From a virus: 45,927 nt of DNA. A model generated the notes under the pieces. The model had not been told where the DNA came from. It did no database searches and was given only the letters and a program-made list of their open reading frames with translations. The stretch spans positions 1-45,927 of IMG/VR virus record IMGVR_UViG_3300002835_000342; one strand, 5' to 3'. Position 1 is the first letter of the stretch; each line of letters starts with the position of its first letter. Below, piece after piece: positions 6,314 to 42,931 of the stretch. The position numbers and the translations under genes are program-made.

Positions 6314-6339
6314 AAAGCCCCCGCAAGGGGGCTTTTTTT
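6314..6339 (+). terminator. Strong intrinsic terminator after gene 32
   Basis: AAAGCCCCC, loop GCAA, GGGGGCTTT followed by a run of T residues (6333-6339). The nine-base-pair stem with a GNRA-type tetraloop is the strongest hairpin in the window. It begins three bases after the gene 32 stop and overlaps the stop of the convergent gene at 6338-6760; the opposite strand also has a short T tract, so it may work in both directions. Confidence 0.9.
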
Positions 6340-6760
6340 ATGCCCATCGGGGAAATTCTGAAAATCTTTCTCGTCTGGCCTCAAATATTAAATTAGTAGG
6401 TTCTGTCAGAGGACGTTCTTCAAATTTTTCAGCAGGCCTTGGATATGGTAGCCAAGAGTCTCTGGCATTACTTGCCAGAGAAGATATAGATGACTGTATA
6501 CCATCAACAGATGTTCTTAATTCTTTATATTGTGCTTCTGCATCAAATTTAATTTTTAAATCAACTGCCGTTTTTGAAACTTCAGCTTGAGCTGAATTTT
6601 TAATATCTGGTTGGGTGGCCGTATAAGAAATTGATTCTGGTAAAACAACATTTTGTTGTTCAGAAGAAACTTCTGCAGATTGTATGCTTGAAGGCATTAA
6701 TGATGCAGAAAAAGATTTTTGTTCTGCTGATACGTCTATTGATACTTCATTTTCATTCAT
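6338..6760 (-). CDS. Unknown protein at the end of the gp4-gp26 operon
   Basis: 140 residues with GGAAGAGGAA upstream of the ATG. The start overlaps the stop of the preceding frame as ATGA, indicating translational coupling. The protein is Ser-, Ala-, Glu- and Val-rich and probably disordered over residues 1-65. It has a likely coiled-coil stretch (about 65-98: VDLKIKFDAEAQYKELRTSV) and a Pro/Arg-rich tail (WLPYPRPAEKF, RERFSEFPRWA). No family is recognised. Position after gp26 and its extension suggests a tail- or baseplate-related role, but this is only contextual. Confidence 0.6.
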   Translation of the reverse strand: MNENEVSIDVSAEQKSFSASLMPSSIQSAEVSSEQQNVVLPESISYTATQPDIKNSAQAEVSKTAVDLKIKFDAEAQYKELRTSVDGIQSSISSLASNARDSWLPYPRPAEKFEERPLTEPTNLIFEARRERFSEFPRWA

Positions 6761-6966
6761 AGATTCATTCCTCTTCCCATATCATAATGTGATGACATTT
6801 GTTCGTGTTTTTTCTGTTCTTGGTAATCCACTAATATCTTTACGTAAATTTCTCGTTCCCACCAAATCATATCGTCCAGATCAAATAGATTCCAATTAAA
6901 ATTATTTATTAAGGTAAAATTTGTTGTAAAATAATCTTTTAAATCAAAAAACTTTACCGAAAGGTA
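6757..6966 (-). CDS. -1 frame extension of gp26 (probable frameshifted tail assembly chaperone domain)
   Basis: A 69-codon frame, -1 relative to gp26, is open through and beyond the gp26 stop and ends at 6757-6759, overlapping the next start as ATGA. Its peptide is protein-like: KFFDLKDYFTTNFTLINNF, FDLDD, MIWWEREIYVKILVDYQEQ. There is no ATG in this frame before 6870, so the first 32 codons could only be reached by frameshifting, giving a 286-residue fusion (217 + 69). Starting at the ATG at 6870 would give a separate 37-residue protein with only a weak GGA site. Paired short and frameshifted-long products are typical of tail assembly chaperones (lambda G/GT). See the recoding site at 6953-6995. 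Confidence 0.6.
   Translation of the reverse strand, partial: YLSVKFFDLKDYFTTNFTLINNFNWNLFDLDDMIWWEREIYVKILVDYQEQKKHEQMSSHYDMGRGMNL
6903..6910 (-). promoter_or_regulatory. Possible late octamer AATAAATA (leftward)
   Basis: AATAAATA on the minus strand, 32 bases before the ATG at 6870. If used, it would allow the 37-residue frame and the 140-residue gene to be made independently of gp26. It lies inside the proposed frameshift extension, and in DNA this AT-rich a chance match is quite possible. Confidence 0.25.
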
Positions 6967-6995
6967 AAAAAACGCAATAACCCATTGACCTCCTT
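6953..6995 (-). other. Candidate -1 programmed ribosomal frameshift site
   Basis: Reading leftward: AAGGAGG (6995-6989), a 16-base gap, seven consecutive T residues (6972-6966) phased T TTT TTT in the gp26 frame, and a hairpin TTTACC-TTTC-GGTAAA (6968-6953). An internal Shine-Dalgarno sequence upstream of a slippery heptamer is the arrangement that stimulates -1 frameshifting in E. coli dnaX. The hairpin overlaps the slippery run instead of following it by 5-9 bases, so its contribution is doubtful. The AAGGAGG otherwise serves only a 13-codon frame beginning at 6985. Confidence 0.55.
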
Positions 6996-7616
6996 GTCAC
7001 CATCTTTTGTTTCTAATACAACAAACAATTCTGGTTGGGTTTTCATAAATTCTTCAAATTTTGGTAAAATGTTTAAAGGTAGATTATCTAAAATAGTTTT
7101 AATGTCTTCGGAAATAAATTTATTAACATGAAAAACTTCTCCACCTACATTGACTTTTTTAATACATGCTTTTAGAAAATCTTCTTTATCTAATGTGTCT
7201 AATTTTAATAAATCTTTTATAGTTGGAGTTTCTAATGTAATAAAAACACTATTTGTGAGTGTAACTGTATCGGATGATATTTCATTTCTGTGTTTAATAT
7301 CTGGTATATAAACTTGAATTTTTTCTTGATTGTAAATCAAATTTAATTGTTCATCTACACTTTTAGATCTGATTTGTAAAAATAAAAATTCAGCATCGGC
7401 CATACAAAGATTCATTATGTTTACATTTTCAGTATTGTTTTTTAATAACTCAACTAATGATATCAATGCTAATTTTTTATTTTCTTCTTGAAGAATAACA
7501 GAAATGCTTTTTGCATCTTTTACTTTAAAGGGTCTAAAAATAACTTTTTGTTTAGAAAAAGGTAAAATAGTTTCGTAAGTGGGTAGCAGGCTTTTTAAAG
7601 AACTCATCAAATCCAT
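6954..7616 (-). CDS. 26: gp26-like baseplate hub / tail assembly protein
   Basis: 220 residues, near T4 gp26 (208). The pattern is that of the T4 gp26 family: an early PFSKQKVIFRPFKVKDAKSI, then NIMNLCMADAEFLFLQIRSK, and a second domain with ITLETPTIKDLLKLD. T4 gp26 is needed for baseplate hub assembly; the homologous fold and position fit a tail assembly chaperone. An AAGGAA site precedes the ATG, which lies three bases after the stop of the tube-initiator-like gene. The 3' end contains the candidate frameshift signal. A second start, Met4, cannot be excluded. The T4-style separate gene 51 is not seen; the -1 frame extension may take its place. Confidence 0.7.
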   Translation of the reverse strand: MDLMSSLKSLLPTYETILPFSKQKVIFRPFKVKDAKSISVILQEENKKLALISLVELLKNNTENVNIMNLCMADAEFLFLQIRSKSVDEQLNLIYNQEKIQVYIPDIKHRNEISSDTVTLTNSVFITLETPTIKDLLKLDTLDKEDFLKACIKKVNVGGEVFHVNKFISEDIKTILDNLPLNILPKFEEFMKTQPELFVVLETKDGDKEVNGLLRFFTFR

Positions 7617-7619
7617 AAA

Positions 7620-8228
7620 TTAAATTCCTTGATAAAAATTAAAGTCTCTGAACAGCATAAGAACTGTATATGTTGAATAATCATTAGACTTCAACATATT
7701 TAATTCAATTGGTAAACATTCAACAGGATATACTTCAAAAAAATTATATGAAACATTTGGATTTCCATTTGGATCTAATAAAGAGATCTTCATTTGTGTT
7801 TGTGCAATAATATCGTCATAAAACTGAACTTGATATGGAAAACGTGTAGCGTTTCTGGCATTATTAGTTGATGATGCTTTTGGTGATTGTCTTCCTCCAG
7901 AATATATTAAATTAAACCATGAATTAAAAAACAATGTAATAAAATTATCATTAGTTACTGGAAAGGTCAAAAGTATACCTTGAGGAAACTTTTGAGATCT
8001 TGGAATTGTTCTACCGGGTCCATAGCCAGCCAAGCCATCTGCAACACCATCTATAGCTCTGGCACCTATTGTTATTGCTAATGGATTTAAATCGTTATTT
8101 GATATAGTTGGTAGGGTAGCTGGCAAATTTGAAAAAGATAATGTAAATCTATTAGATCTTTGAAGACCATTGTGGCGATCAAAAAAGTCTTTTATTGATA
8201 AAATTGAATTGTTATTTGGAATTGGCAT
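7620..8228 (-). CDS. Tail tube initiator-like protein (gp54-like, tube fold)
   Basis: 202 residues. The opening DFFDRHNGLQRSNRFTLSF resembles the start of tube-family proteins such as the two gp19 copies here (NGGTRANRF, FGGSRSNRF), and the C-terminal YPVECLPIELNML parallels their CWP-x-x-x-x-INLNMG block. In T4, gp54 (320) sits on the gp48 cap and nucleates the tube of gp19. Placement next to gp48, on the opposite strand beyond gp4, supports a baseplate-end tube role. It is shorter than T4 gp54, so it could instead be another tube-fold adaptor. Its 5' end overlaps gp4 by 17 bases. Confidence 0.55.
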   Translation of the reverse strand: MPIPNNNSILSIKDFFDRHNGLQRSNRFTLSFSNLPATLPTISNNDLNPLAITIGARAIDGVADGLAGYGPGRTIPRSQKFPQGILLTFPVTNDNFITLFFNSWFNLIYSGGRQSPKASSTNNARNATRFPYQVQFYDDIIAQTQMKISLLDPNGNPNVSYNFFEVYPVECLPIELNMLKSNDYSTYTVLMLFRDFNFYQGI

Positions 8229-20045: not shown

Positions 20046-21371
20046 ATGCCATCACTCAGCTCCTTTATAAGCTCTAACCAATATTCGACAGAAAGCACTA
20101 CTAATACCCTAGTAGCTGGTATGATCGCCGGAAATACATACAACAGCGGTTTGACATTTAATGGTATTTCTGGTGCTGCTGGCAATGATCCCGGTGGATT
20201 GTTTGGGTGGCTTATATACTCAAGGTCCAGAACATGGGGAAATACTGGATCTGGAACCCCCGCAAAAGGTACTACTTTAGACAAATATATTGTTTATACC
20301 ACACCACAAGATTTTATCGGAGATTTAAATTCATTAGGTGGAGTTACGGCATGTCTGGTATCAGATCCCGGTGCAGGTGGAACATTTGGATTTTTTCAAA
20401 CTGCCGGAGTAGAAAATAACTCTGTTCGTCTAACACCATTGGCTGCTGGTACAGATATGTTGTTTGCCATAAATTATATGGCTTACGGTGGTTCTTTGGT
20501 TTTGTCTGGATCTGCAGCTGGATTGGACCAATATATTATAGATGAGCAAAATTATTTTGATATAGTAATTGGCCAACAAGCAGGAACCACATTATGCCAA
20601 TGGCTCATAGATCAACCATATACTGTAGGTATATTCCCAAGCGTTGCCGATAGTTCGGGAGTTACGGGAGCTGGTTATACTATGGCAAACTATGCAACTT
20701 TGTTTGGATCGTCTGCCTATGTCACCGGAACACAAGTTGCCAACAGAATATTCAATGTTTGTGGTTTAAAAACTGTAACAGATCTAGATACAACTTCGTT
20801 ATTAAGCACTAGCAAAATCACATATACCTTGCCAGCAGTTTCTGATGTAGGTGGATTCTTTACCAGAGCTTTAAATCGAAATGAAGAGTATTTGACTGTA
20901 GCTGGTATAGATAGAGCAACTGTATTAAATGGAAATGTATCAAATTCTATTGATTGGTTTGATAATTTAAAAACGGTTTTAAGAAATAATAGAGTCAATT
21001 TCTTTGTAAACTTTAATCCTAAATTTTTAGGATCAGATGTTGTTGGAGCTACTGCAAACAATTCTGGTGTAGTATCATCTGACGAAAGAATAGGCCCATC
21101 AAGACTTCGTTCAGCTTTAGCGCAAGCTATTAATGACATTGCATTGAAATACCTATTTGATGTAAATAATGCCGCCACCCGTGCACAAATTACTTCTGAA
21201 ATAGATACTGCAATAGATCCATTTACTCCATATATTGATAGCACAAAAACTCAAATTATATGCGACGCATCTAATAATACTGATAATTCATCAAACTTGA
21301 CGGTTCAAGTAATAATCAAGCCAATTCTCAGCATTGATAGCTTCATAATCGATATAACCCTAACACAATAA
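20046..21371 (+). CDS. 18: Tail sheath protein gp18 (short form)
   Basis: 441 residues, clearly shorter than T4 gp18 (659), which suggests loss of the outer surface domains and retention of the conserved core. The sheath contracts to drive the tube through the host envelope. Evidence: position between terminase and tube genes; a Gly/Ser/Thr-rich N-terminal half; IDWFDNLKTVLRNNRVNFFV; IGPSRLRSALAQAINDIALK YLFDVNN-type helix; and the terminal IIKPILSIDSFIIDITLT strand, which is the handshake strand pattern of contractile sheaths. The last codon overlaps the start of the first gp19 gene (TAATG). Similarity is weaker than for gp17 or gp23. Confidence 0.8.
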   Translation: MPSLSSFISSNQYSTESTTNTLVAGMIAGNTYNSGLTFNGISGAAGNDPGGLFGWLIYSRSRTWGNTGSGTPAKGTTLDKYIVYTTPQDFIGDLNSLGGVTACLVSDPGAGGTFGFFQTAGVENNSVRLTPLAAGTDMLFAINYMAYGGSLVLSGSAAGLDQYIIDEQNYFDIVIGQQAGTTLCQWLIDQPYTVGIFPSVADSSGVTGAGYTMANYATLFGSSAYVTGTQVANRIFNVCGLKTVTDLDTTSLLSTSKITYTLPAVSDVGGFFTRALNRNEEYLTVAGIDRATVLNGNVSNSIDWFDNLKTVLRNNRVNFFVNFNPKFLGSDVVGATANNSGVVSSDERIGPSRLRSALAQAINDIALKYLFDVNNAATRAQITSEIDTAIDPFTPYIDSTKTQIICDASNNTDNSSNLTVQVIIKPILSIDSFIIDITLTQ

Positions 21372-21913
21372 TGGCATCAAAAAATTCAATAATTAATTTT
21401 AAAGATGGTTTTAATGGTGGAACTCGTGCCAATAGGTTCGTGGTGATGCCAAAGTGGCCAAATGGAATTAGTATTGATAAAAATGATGCGGCATTTAAAA
21501 TGGTATCCGCATCTTTGCCTGCTACACAGATTAATACAATATCTGTCCCATACCGTGGAAGAATGATTACATATGCTGGGGATAGAATTTATAGTACTTG
21601 GGCTATAGGCATTTACGACGATAATAATACCAAAAATATATGGAAAGCATTACACACTTGGTCGGAGCAAATGGACGGCCATTATACCCACAAAGTTATT
21701 AGAAATGATTATTCTTATAAAACTCTTCAAACAACTTGGCAAATAAAACAATTGGATTTAAACGGAAATCCTATAAAAACAATTACTCTTTATAAATGCT
21801 GGCCATCGGTTGTCGGAGAAATTAATCTTAATATGGGTGAAGTTGGCTTTGTTGGTTTTAGTGCAACACTTACCTTCGATTATCTTAGAATTCAAGACAA
21901 TTATAATAGCTAA
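21371..21913 (+). CDS. 19: Tail tube protein gp19, first copy
   Basis: 180 residues (T4 gp19 has 163). Six copies per ring make the inner tail tube. The family pattern is visible: NFKDGFNGGTRANRFVVMP at the N-terminus, ASLPATQINTISVPYRGR, YAGDRIYSTWAIGIYDD, LNGNPIKTITLYKCWP and EINLNMGEVGFVGFSATLTF. The gene overlaps the sheath stop by one base and is followed three bases later by a second, related tube gene. This copy is closest to canonical gp19 in spacing and order (18 then 19), so it is probably the main tube subunit, though the two copies could share the role. Confidence 0.85.
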   Translation: MASKNSIINFKDGFNGGTRANRFVVMPKWPNGISIDKNDAAFKMVSASLPATQINTISVPYRGRMITYAGDRIYSTWAIGIYDDNNTKNIWKALHTWSEQMDGHYTHKVIRNDYSYKTLQTTWQIKQLDLNGNPIKTITLYKCWPSVVGEINLNMGEVGFVGFSATLTFDYLRIQDNYNS

Positions 21914-21916
21914 ACT

Positions 21917-22447
21917 ATGCTCATAGATTTTAAAACAAATTTCTTTGGAGGATCACGATCTAACCGATTTAAAATAATCGGTAGTTTTCCCACAGGTGGA
22001 AAATTTACGGATTATCATGTAAGAGCAGCTACAGTACCTAACGCAGCCTCCAAGACTATAAGCTATGATCATTTTGGTAGAAAATATCATTATCCTGGTG
22101 AAAAAGATTACGGTACATGGTCTTTCACGGCGTGGGATGATACTGGATCAAATAATATTTGGGGAAGAATTCAAAAGTGGCAAGATCTTATAAACAACCA
22201 CGATACCAATAAATCTTCCACACTTCCAAAAAGATATAAAGCGGATAATTGGAAAATACAACATTTAAATTTAAATGGTGAAGATGGTCCAAATTCTGTT
22301 TTAAAAGAATATAAATTGTACGGCTGCTGGCCTGCAGGAATTCAACCAATAAACCTAAACATGGGTAATCCAAACACGTTAAATAGTTTTAACGTTATCA
22401 TTGTTTTTGATTATATTGAGATAACTAATGTTACAAGAAGAAACTAA
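21917..22447 (+). CDS. Tail tube protein gp19 paralogue, second copy
   Basis: 176 residues, starting three bases after the first copy. Shared blocks: NFFGGSRSNRF versus NGGTRANRF, YPGEKDYGTWSFTAWDD versus YAGDRIYSTWAIGIYDD, LNLNGEDG versus LDLNGNP, and YGCWPAGIQPINLNMG versus YKCWPSVVGEINLNMG. Overall divergence is high, so the duplication is not recent. Possible roles are an alternating or terminal tube ring, a tube terminator at the neck, or an inner component specialised for the baseplate side. T4 has only one gp19, so this is an expansion. Sequence alone does not say which ring it forms. Confidence 0.8.
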   Translation: MLIDFKTNFFGGSRSNRFKIIGSFPTGGKFTDYHVRAATVPNAASKTISYDHFGRKYHYPGEKDYGTWSFTAWDDTGSNNIWGRIQKWQDLINNHDTNKSSTLPKRYKADNWKIQHLNLNGEDGPNSVLKEYKLYGCWPAGIQPINLNMGNPNTLNSFNVIIVFDYIEITNVTRRN

Positions 22448-41120: not shown

Positions 41121-42053
41121 ATGAAATGTTTAGTAACAGGTGGCGCAGGGTTTATTGGATCAAATCTCGTAGATTGTTTGATAGACCAGGGTCATGATGT
41201 AACAGTTATTGACAATGAATCCTCGGATTCAAATGAACAATTTTATTGGAATGATAAATCAAATAATTACAAATATAATATATGTGATTATGTTATGTCT
41301 TCTGATGTCTTTAAAAGACATAAACCAGATGTAGTATTTCATTTGGCTGCAGAAGCACGTATTCAACCATCAATCATAGATCCATTAAAAGCTATAGAAA
41401 CTAATATAGTTGGAACAGCTACAATCTTACAACTTTCCAGAAAATATAATGTAAAAAGATTTATATATTCTTCTACGTCATCGGCATATGGATTAAAAAA
41501 TAATATTCCATTAAAAGAAGATATGCCAAATGATTGCTTGAATCCATATTCAGTTTCTAAAACTGCAGGTGAAGAATTGTGTAAAATGTATACAAAATTA
41601 TATGGTATACAAACTATTATTTTTAGATACTTTAATGTTTATGGAGAAAGACAACCACTAAAAGGGCAATACGCTCCAGTTGTTGGGATTTTTCAAAGAC
41701 AAAAAAATGCAAGTGAATCTATGACAATCGTAGGAGATGGAGAACAGAGAAGAGATTTTACTCATGTTTCAGATGTTGTCTCCGCAAATATAATGGCAGC
41801 AACTAAAGAATTCGATGAATGGCAAGTAAATGGCTCGGAAAATAAAATATATCAGTATGGACAAATATATAATGTTGGTACTGGTACCAACTATTCTATA
41901 AATCAAGTTGCTGAAATGGTTGGTGGACCAACGACTAATATTTCATCTCGATCTGGTGAATCAAGAATAACATTAGCAAATATATCAAAAATCCAAAGAG
42001 AAATAGGTTGGTCTCCAAAAATAAAATTAGAAGACTGGTTAAAAAAAAAATAA
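41121..42053 (+). CDS. NAD-dependent sugar epimerase (GalE/WbpP-like SDR)
   Basis: 310 residues. Complete extended SDR motif set: VTGGAGFIGSNLVD (5-18), Asp in VIDNESSD, HLAAEARIQPSIIDP (about 76-90), YSSTSSAYGL with the catalytic Ser/Thr, and YSVSK for Tyr/Lys. EARIQPS and FRYFNVYGERQPLKGQYAPV resemble UDP-glucose or UDP-N-acetylglucosamine 4-epimerases of the WbpP/GalE type. It would supply an epimerised sugar donor for the neighbouring transferases. Preceded by AGGA; the next gene starts six bases after its stop. Exact substrate is not determinable from sequence. Confidence 0.85.
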   Translation: MKCLVTGGAGFIGSNLVDCLIDQGHDVTVIDNESSDSNEQFYWNDKSNNYKYNICDYVMSSDVFKRHKPDVVFHLAAEARIQPSIIDPLKAIETNIVGTATILQLSRKYNVKRFIYSSTSSAYGLKNNIPLKEDMPNDCLNPYSVSKTAGEELCKMYTKLYGIQTIIFRYFNVYGERQPLKGQYAPVVGIFQRQKNASESMTIVGDGEQRRDFTHVSDVVSANIMAATKEFDEWQVNGSENKIYQYGQIYNVGTGTNYSINQVAEMVGGPTTNISSRSGESRITLANISKIQREIGWSPKIKLEDWLKKK

Positions 42054-42058
42054 TTAAT

Positions 42059-42931
42059 ATGAATTTAATACTCGCATACCATTCAGTACCAGAAAAAGAT
42101 CTCTGGAGCACTCCACTCGGTTGGGGAAAGTCTTTTCAAAAAAAAGGACATAATGTAATTTATGTTTCAGATTTAAATCCACACAATATATCATTTGAAA
42201 AAATATATCAGCACATAGATGAAGTTGATTTTGTATTATTTTGTTGGTGTGGTCCTTGTGAATCTTTTGATAGAGAACTCTCTATATTAAGAAACAAAAC
42301 AAATAAAAAATTGTATATGGAACTTGGTGATGAACCACAGGCATTTTACCATAATCAAAGAAGAGTTCACAATATTGATGTTTTACTTACACCGGATTTA
42401 CGATGTCATAAAATATATCAATCTATGGGACTAACATCTTATTGGATGCCATGTTTTTGTGATGATGAAATTTTTTATAAAAAAAATAATCCAAATAAAA
42501 AAAATATTTGTGTAACAACTTGTGGTGATAGACCAAATACAGCAATTTTAAAACAAACATTTGGTGATAAATTTATAAATGAAAAAGTTTGGAATTATGA
42601 TAATACTGATTTTTTTAATTCGGGAACAATTTCTTATCAATATGCTAGATATGATGAAGTAACAAGAAGACTTTTTGAAATTGGTGGTTGTGGCAATGCA
42701 GTGTTGACAAACAGAATATCTCTTAAAAGTGGTATATATGAGCTTTTTACAGAAGATGAAGATATGGCTTTTTATTCTGGTGAAGAAGAATGTCTTACAA
42801 AGATGAATCGTCTTTTGAATGATGCTGAATACAGAAACAAATTGTCTTTAAATTTATACAATAAAATAACTACCAAACACATGGTATCCAATAGAGTTGA
42901 TGAAGTTATACAAATTCATCAATCACAATAA
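42059..42931 (+). CDS. Probable GT-B glycosyltransferase at the end of the island
   Basis: 290 residues from the ATG at 42059; a TTG-type start at 42008 would lie inside the preceding gene. N-terminal NLILAYHSVPEKDLWSTPLG WGKSFQKKGHNVIYVSD-type opening, then KLYMELGDEPQAFYHNQRRV and DVLLTPDLRCHKIYQSMGLT match the pattern of GT-B enzymes with a terminal RRLFEIGGCGNAVLT NR-type donor-binding region (about 210-225) and a YSGEEECLTKMNRLLNDAEY tail, common in spore/glycan transferases. No signal peptide. It is followed by 122 bases without a gene before gp55. Confidence 0.65.
   Translation: MNLILAYHSVPEKDLWSTPLGWGKSFQKKGHNVIYVSDLNPHNISFEKIYQHIDEVDFVLFCWCGPCESFDRELSILRNKTNKKLYMELGDEPQAFYHNQRRVHNIDVLLTPDLRCHKIYQSMGLTSYWMPCFCDDEIFYKKNNPNKKNICVTTCGDRPNTAILKQTFGDKFINEKVWNYDNTDFFNSGTISYQYARYDEVTRRLFEIGGCGNAVLTNRISLKSGIYELFTEDEDMAFYSGEEECLTKMNRLLNDAEYRNKLSLNLYNKITTKHMVSNRVDEVIQIHQSQ

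Follow-up and report, generated by a model that had tools for sequence, protein, structure and literature searches.

In phage lambda, the gene after the tail tube gene encodes a short protein (gpG), and a low-frequency -1 shift near its 3' end, at the heptamer G GGA AAG, adds an extension to give the long form gpGT. In E. coli, dnaX combines an internal Shine-Dalgarno sequence, a slippery heptamer and a downstream stem-loop (PMC5600365). A 2016 review described G-T frameshifting as widespread 'except T4' (PMC5009743). Tail assembly chaperones of T4-like phages were then identified by Vladimirov, Gautam & Davidson 2022 (Virology 566:9-15), a study represented here by the papers citing it (PMC10885494, PMC12846349). 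According to these, some T4-like phages carry the short and the fused long chaperone genes separately, not using frameshifting (PMC10885494), and for T4-like phages, polyT frameshift signals have been recognised within the short chaperone gene (PMC12846349). In the Vandenendeviridae / Andersonviridae, another phage family, the short chaperone gene of phage Adele ends in a conserved T-rich motif, GTTTTT, on which a -1 shift likewise occurs (PMC12846349). As conveyed by the citing papers, chaperone pairs of T4-like phages with a polyT frameshift signal are an already known kind. The 2022 study is said to have found frameshifting conserved in several T4-like groups, with T4 using genes 26 and 51. 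These are two genes on opposite strands that work without frameshifting, with gp26 as the short form and gp51 as the long form.

The locus analyzed here lies in a 45.9-kb virus record (IMG/VR IMGVR_UViG_3300002835_000342; the whole stretch is called the window below). Its source group is freshwater T4-like, and T4-type portal, capsid, terminase, sheath, tail tube and single-strand binding genes are present. Judged by comparative sequence evidence, its gp26 gene (6954..7616, on the - strand like all features of this locus; 220 aa) very probably encodes a tail assembly chaperone whose long form arises by -1 programmed ribosomal frameshifting. It shares with the T4-like chaperones of the 2022 study, as far as the citing papers describe them, the short and the long chaperone and a polyT -1 signal in the short gene. 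The gp26 product matches PF12322 (T4_baseplate, E=1.7e-21) and phrog_150 (baseplate hub, E=1.7e-22), and from its family it would have chaperone activity. Directly upstream, gp26 is adjoined by a tail-tube-like gene (7620..8228, 202 aa; phrog_45, tail tube, E=2.2e-10), as in lambda. Three proteins of the phrog_45 tail-tube family occur in the window, at 7620-8228 next to the chaperone, at 21371-21913 and at 21917-22447. On the other side follows a gene of 140 aa and unknown function (6338..6760), whose start ATG at 6760 overlaps the stop of the -1 frame extension (ATGA), a position that is conserved in relatives. In the window and at the corresponding place in L001-L079, this gene 3' of the chaperone encodes only 140-176 aa with a conserved C-terminus FEERPT...P.WA; in cyanophages, a large ORF stands 3' of the chaperone, which is annotated as tape measure in HTVC008M. 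The locus thus differs from lambda in its heptamer and in having no large tape measure gene directly downstream, and none could be recognised in the rest of the window. The 140-176 aa protein might take the tape measure role. A comparison with Rfam gave no match within the window.

The 3' end of gp26 reads GGG TTA TTG CGT TTT TTT ACC TTT CGG TAA and contains the slippery heptamer T TTT TTT (6966..6972) in phase. Its conservation was followed in a total of 165 loci, comprising a window group of 81 (the window and 80 metagenomic relatives with 45-100% identity) and 84 cyanophage-type loci (80 loci related to S-PM2 and the isolates P-TIM68, HTVC008M, S-PM2 and pf16). At the end of gp26, all 165/165 loci carry an in-phase heptamer, either T TTT TTT or T TTT TTC; counts across related sequences, here and below, are not independent of one another. 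The form T TTT TTT is found in 81/81 window-group loci and also in HTVC008M and pf16, whereas 82 cyanophage-type loci and five further isolates (S-WAM1, S-CREM1, S-H68, B23 and Syn19) have T TTT TTC. None of these nine isolates, all of which have the heptamer, annotates a join to gp26. In the window group, the codon ahead of the two Phe codons is AAT, GAT, AGT, ACT or CGT and hence always NNT for five amino acids. Because the preceding amino acid varies while the third base stays T, it can be concluded from the codon pattern that the heptamer itself, and not a protein motif, is evidently under selection. On the - strand of the window, runs of seven T occur 25 times, and a few other ORFs have both an open -1 frame and a slippery heptamer. 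Since such runs are common, the heptamer motif alone would not exceed chance, and it is the conservation that makes the case. One other candidate, the epimerase gene at 41121-42053 with an A-run at its end and an open -1 frame (42041-42060), was rejected as an ordinary neighbour, the glycosyltransferase-like next gene having its own ATG at 42060.

Sixteen nucleotides upstream of the slip site, an internal Shine-Dalgarno-like AAGGAGG (6989..6995) is found, which occurs only once on the - strand of the window. Its GAGG core is retained in 57/57 distinct genes: the Glu codon within the element is GAG in 57/57 distinct genes compared with 11.5% elsewhere in gp26, and the preceding Lys codon is AAG in 47/47 genes with Lys compared with a background of 10.4%. 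At the positions of the element, codon identity reaches 1.00, the mean being 0.60. Overlapping coding cannot explain this choice, because the -1 frame is often closed there. In cyanophages, GAGG lies 10 nt upstream of the heptamer in 41/66. The spacing of 16 nt in the window is longer than in dnaX, where the Shine-Dalgarno sequence stands roughly 10 nt from the slip site. The dnaX signal further differs in its A-run, in place of the U-run here, and in its unrelated products.

Downstream, a stem-loop begins 7 nt past the heptamer with the 5' arm GGTAAAGTTT (6949..6958), within which the 0-frame stop TAA of gp26 is located (6954..6956), and this arm pairs with the 3' arm AAATTTTACC (6913..6922). 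The stem has 10 bp in the window and 9-10 bp across the conserved set. The 60 nt past the slip site have a mean fold energy of -11.8 kcal/mol and a mean z of -3.3, while values of about -4.7 prevail along most of the gene, and against resampling of synonymous codons for the same peptide, 39/46 sequences reached P<=0.01. Pairing is retained in 97.2% of cells in 32 aligned sequences, while slid controls stayed at or below 67.8%, and three compensated pairs show changes on both sides, e.g. GGTGAAATT with AATTTCACC. In the side lineages L019/L029 and L059-L076, the 3' arm is relocated and still pairs with the same 5' arm. Comparable stems are present in many cyanophage loci, S-PM2 having a 14-bp stem. 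The original prediction had held a hairpin overlapping the slippery run against its own reading; the relevant hairpin is a different one, the 10-bp stem that starts 7 nt after the run and had been missed.

The -1 frame stays open beyond the gp26 stop as far as the TGA at 6759-6757 and encodes an extension of 69 aa and a stop (6757..6966), so that the predicted fusion has 286 aa. The extension alone matches phrog_634 ('baseplate hub assembly catalyst', gp51) with E=4.1e-14 over columns 64-115 of 121, and the -1 frame therefore represents a gp51-type C-terminal domain (TAC-C) and not a random open frame. The extensions of the window group and of the cyanophages match each other by hhalign (E=2e-19). 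With regards to its evolution, the -1 frame past the gp26 stop has no stops and a crude dN/dS of 0.175 for the window group and 0.11 for cyanophages, whereas the other two frames of the same stretch gave values above 1 (about 1.1) and many stops, which is a large contrast even with counts that are not independent. By these substitution ratios, the -1 frame evidently evolves as protein-coding sequence. A tblastn search with the 69-aa extension alone against isolate phages gave no match, and relatives were reached by profiles only.

Most of what the original prediction had set out for this stretch was confirmed. The seven-T run (6972-6966, phase T TTT TTT), the AAGGAGG 16 bases upstream and the -1 frame running to 6757 were placed correctly, and the 69-residue extension giving a fusion of 286 residues proved to be the gp51 domain when compared with phrog_634, a check that had been suggested at the time. 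No relative has a break in the T run or carries it out of phase, the GAGG of the AAGGAGG is kept in the 57 distinct genes, and the -1 frame is conserved and related. The proposed G/GT-like chaperone pair made by a -1 frameshift in a T4-type phage is supported by this conservation, although the idea as such was already known.

What is conserved by comparison of the loci is the heptamer, the Shine-Dalgarno-like element, the stem-loop, the lack of an independent start and the coding character of the -1 frame. All three parts of a dnaX-type signal are clearly legible in the window. In the mechanism suggested by these parts, most ribosomes would halt at the gp26 stop and yield a short form of 220 aa (TAC-N, the counterpart of lambda gpG). 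On U UUU UUU, a minority would slip back by one base while the Shine-Dalgarno-like GGAGG behind them and the stem-loop 7 nt in front hold them in place, an arrangement known from E. coli dnaX. After the slip, 69 further codons would be read to give the 286-aa long form (TAC-NC, like gpGT). Slippage would presumably take place in the cell at some frequency, and the two products may cover the tape measure and bring in tube subunits.

One of the other explanations is a separate gene 51, and a small gene is annotated separately in the public records of P-TIM68, S-PM2, HTVC008M, pf16, S-CREM1, S-H68, B23 and Syn19. Such a gene would have to start on its own, either from the ATG at 6870 or from some non-standard codon, or else be translated by ribosomes that reinitiate once past the stop of gp26, and the original prediction had pointed to a possible late promoter before ATG 6870. 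This is the first in-frame ATG of the extension in the window; however, its product would have 37 aa and lack the first half of the conserved domain. Between the upstream -1-frame stop and the slip site, 0/165 loci contain an ATG, GTG or TTG in the -1 frame, and in 19/165 loci the -1 stop lies at most two codons upstream of the slip site, which agrees with the earlier expectation that relatives have no clear start at the head of the extension. Past the slip, the loci of the window group mostly have their first start codon in mid-domain, as an ATG at codon 34, and they conserve none at an early position. The situation is different in about 39/84 cyanophage-type loci, which have an ATG five codons past the slip and in which a separate gp51 could be made too. 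Moreover, the annotated gp51 starts vary between relatives, S-WAM1 has no annotated gp51 despite an intact -1 frame, and the gp51 of T4 has the same domain fused to a gp26-like domain. A separate gene would also leave the conserved heptamer, the Shine-Dalgarno-like element and the stem unexplained. An independent gp51 start was rejected on the absence of upstream starts and of a conserved early start in the window group, and we consider the separate gene as a whole highly improbable. In a side branch (L073-L075), the gp26 stop overlaps a -1-frame ATG (ATGA), and coupled reinitiation could add free extension there besides the frameshift product.

A change of frame on seven T could also be made by RNA polymerase rather than by the ribosome, given that transcriptional slippage on homopolymer runs is known (PMC5009743) and that the seven T are kept throughout the 81/81 window-group loci. 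However, the cyanophage homologues keep T TTT TTC in the same place, which has six T only and is a ribosomal heptamer, and both the Shine-Dalgarno-like element and the correctly spaced stem are ribosomal stimulators, making polymerase slippage very unlikely. That a homopolymer sequencing error split one continuous gene might be suspected of a contig from a public virus collection with the change within a T run. However, nine isolate genomes and 80 contigs besides this one show the two frames in an identical relation, and cyanophages do so with a different heptamer. An assembly error was accordingly rejected on the metagenomic relatives and isolates, and an artefact is hardly conceivable.

The comparison with T4 places both products of the locus. 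T4 gp51 matches PF12322 with its residues 1-201 (E=3.9e-52) and phrog_634 with residues 147-246, and the reconstructed fusion aligns with it end to end by hhalign (E=2e-8 for the window group, 2e-18 for the cyanophage fusion). Because gp51 consists of a whole gp26-like domain and the extension domain, it is, by these profile matches, evidently the in-frame counterpart of the fusion, and T4 genes 26 and 51 are paralogues. The two products very probably made here by frameshifting are two separate genes in T4. The original prediction was right in naming genes 26 and 51 as two genes in T4; to this it can be added that they are paralogues, with gp51 composed of a gp26-like part and the extension. 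In a tree, T4-type gp26 and gp51 group together, apart from the frameshift-type gp26 (99/94; midpoint root), which fits a duplication in the T4 lineage that may have replaced frameshifting, as far as the midpoint-rooted tree is followed. The gp26 of T4 (L082) has a weak similarity to phrog_1140, the baseplate hub distal subunit family (E=9e-4), and the T4 hub may contain a wider family of paralogues. With regards to the fold, an AlphaFold model of gp26 (pLDDT 89) matches many gp26-type proteins in BFVD with E down to 5e-14. Against the PDB, chains of the HK97 chaperone 2ob9 had the top probability among the matches listed (0.47 and 0.33), these being weak matches with E=0.66 and 1.2. A PDB sequence search with the gp26 profile returned chance matches only, and for a T4-type gp51 model, no match was obtained when the PDB was searched by fold.

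In the literature, with the 2022 study represented by its citing papers, no description was found of the Shine-Dalgarno-like element, the stem-loop or the freshwater lineage. We tentatively propose, as a view that falls just short of an even chance, that the complete dnaX-like three-part signal of internal Shine-Dalgarno sequence, U-run heptamer and movable stem-loop in the freshwater lineage and in cyanophages is undescribed, and that it represents the ancestral way of setting the ratio of the two products, replaced in T4 by gene duplication and in-frame fusion of the extension. Frameshifting at this locus would explain why gp51 is tiny or missing in annotations of cyanophages and freshwater T4-like phages and why its annotated start wanders, and annotations should join the extension to gp26 as one coding sequence. 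With two heptamers and a stem arm that moves between lineages, the loci form a natural series of one frameshift signal, in which the contributions of the stimulators would be measurable. Finally, T4 gp51, a long-puzzling assembly factor that is absent from the finished particle, would be connected with the long form, the minor one, of a pair of chaperones.
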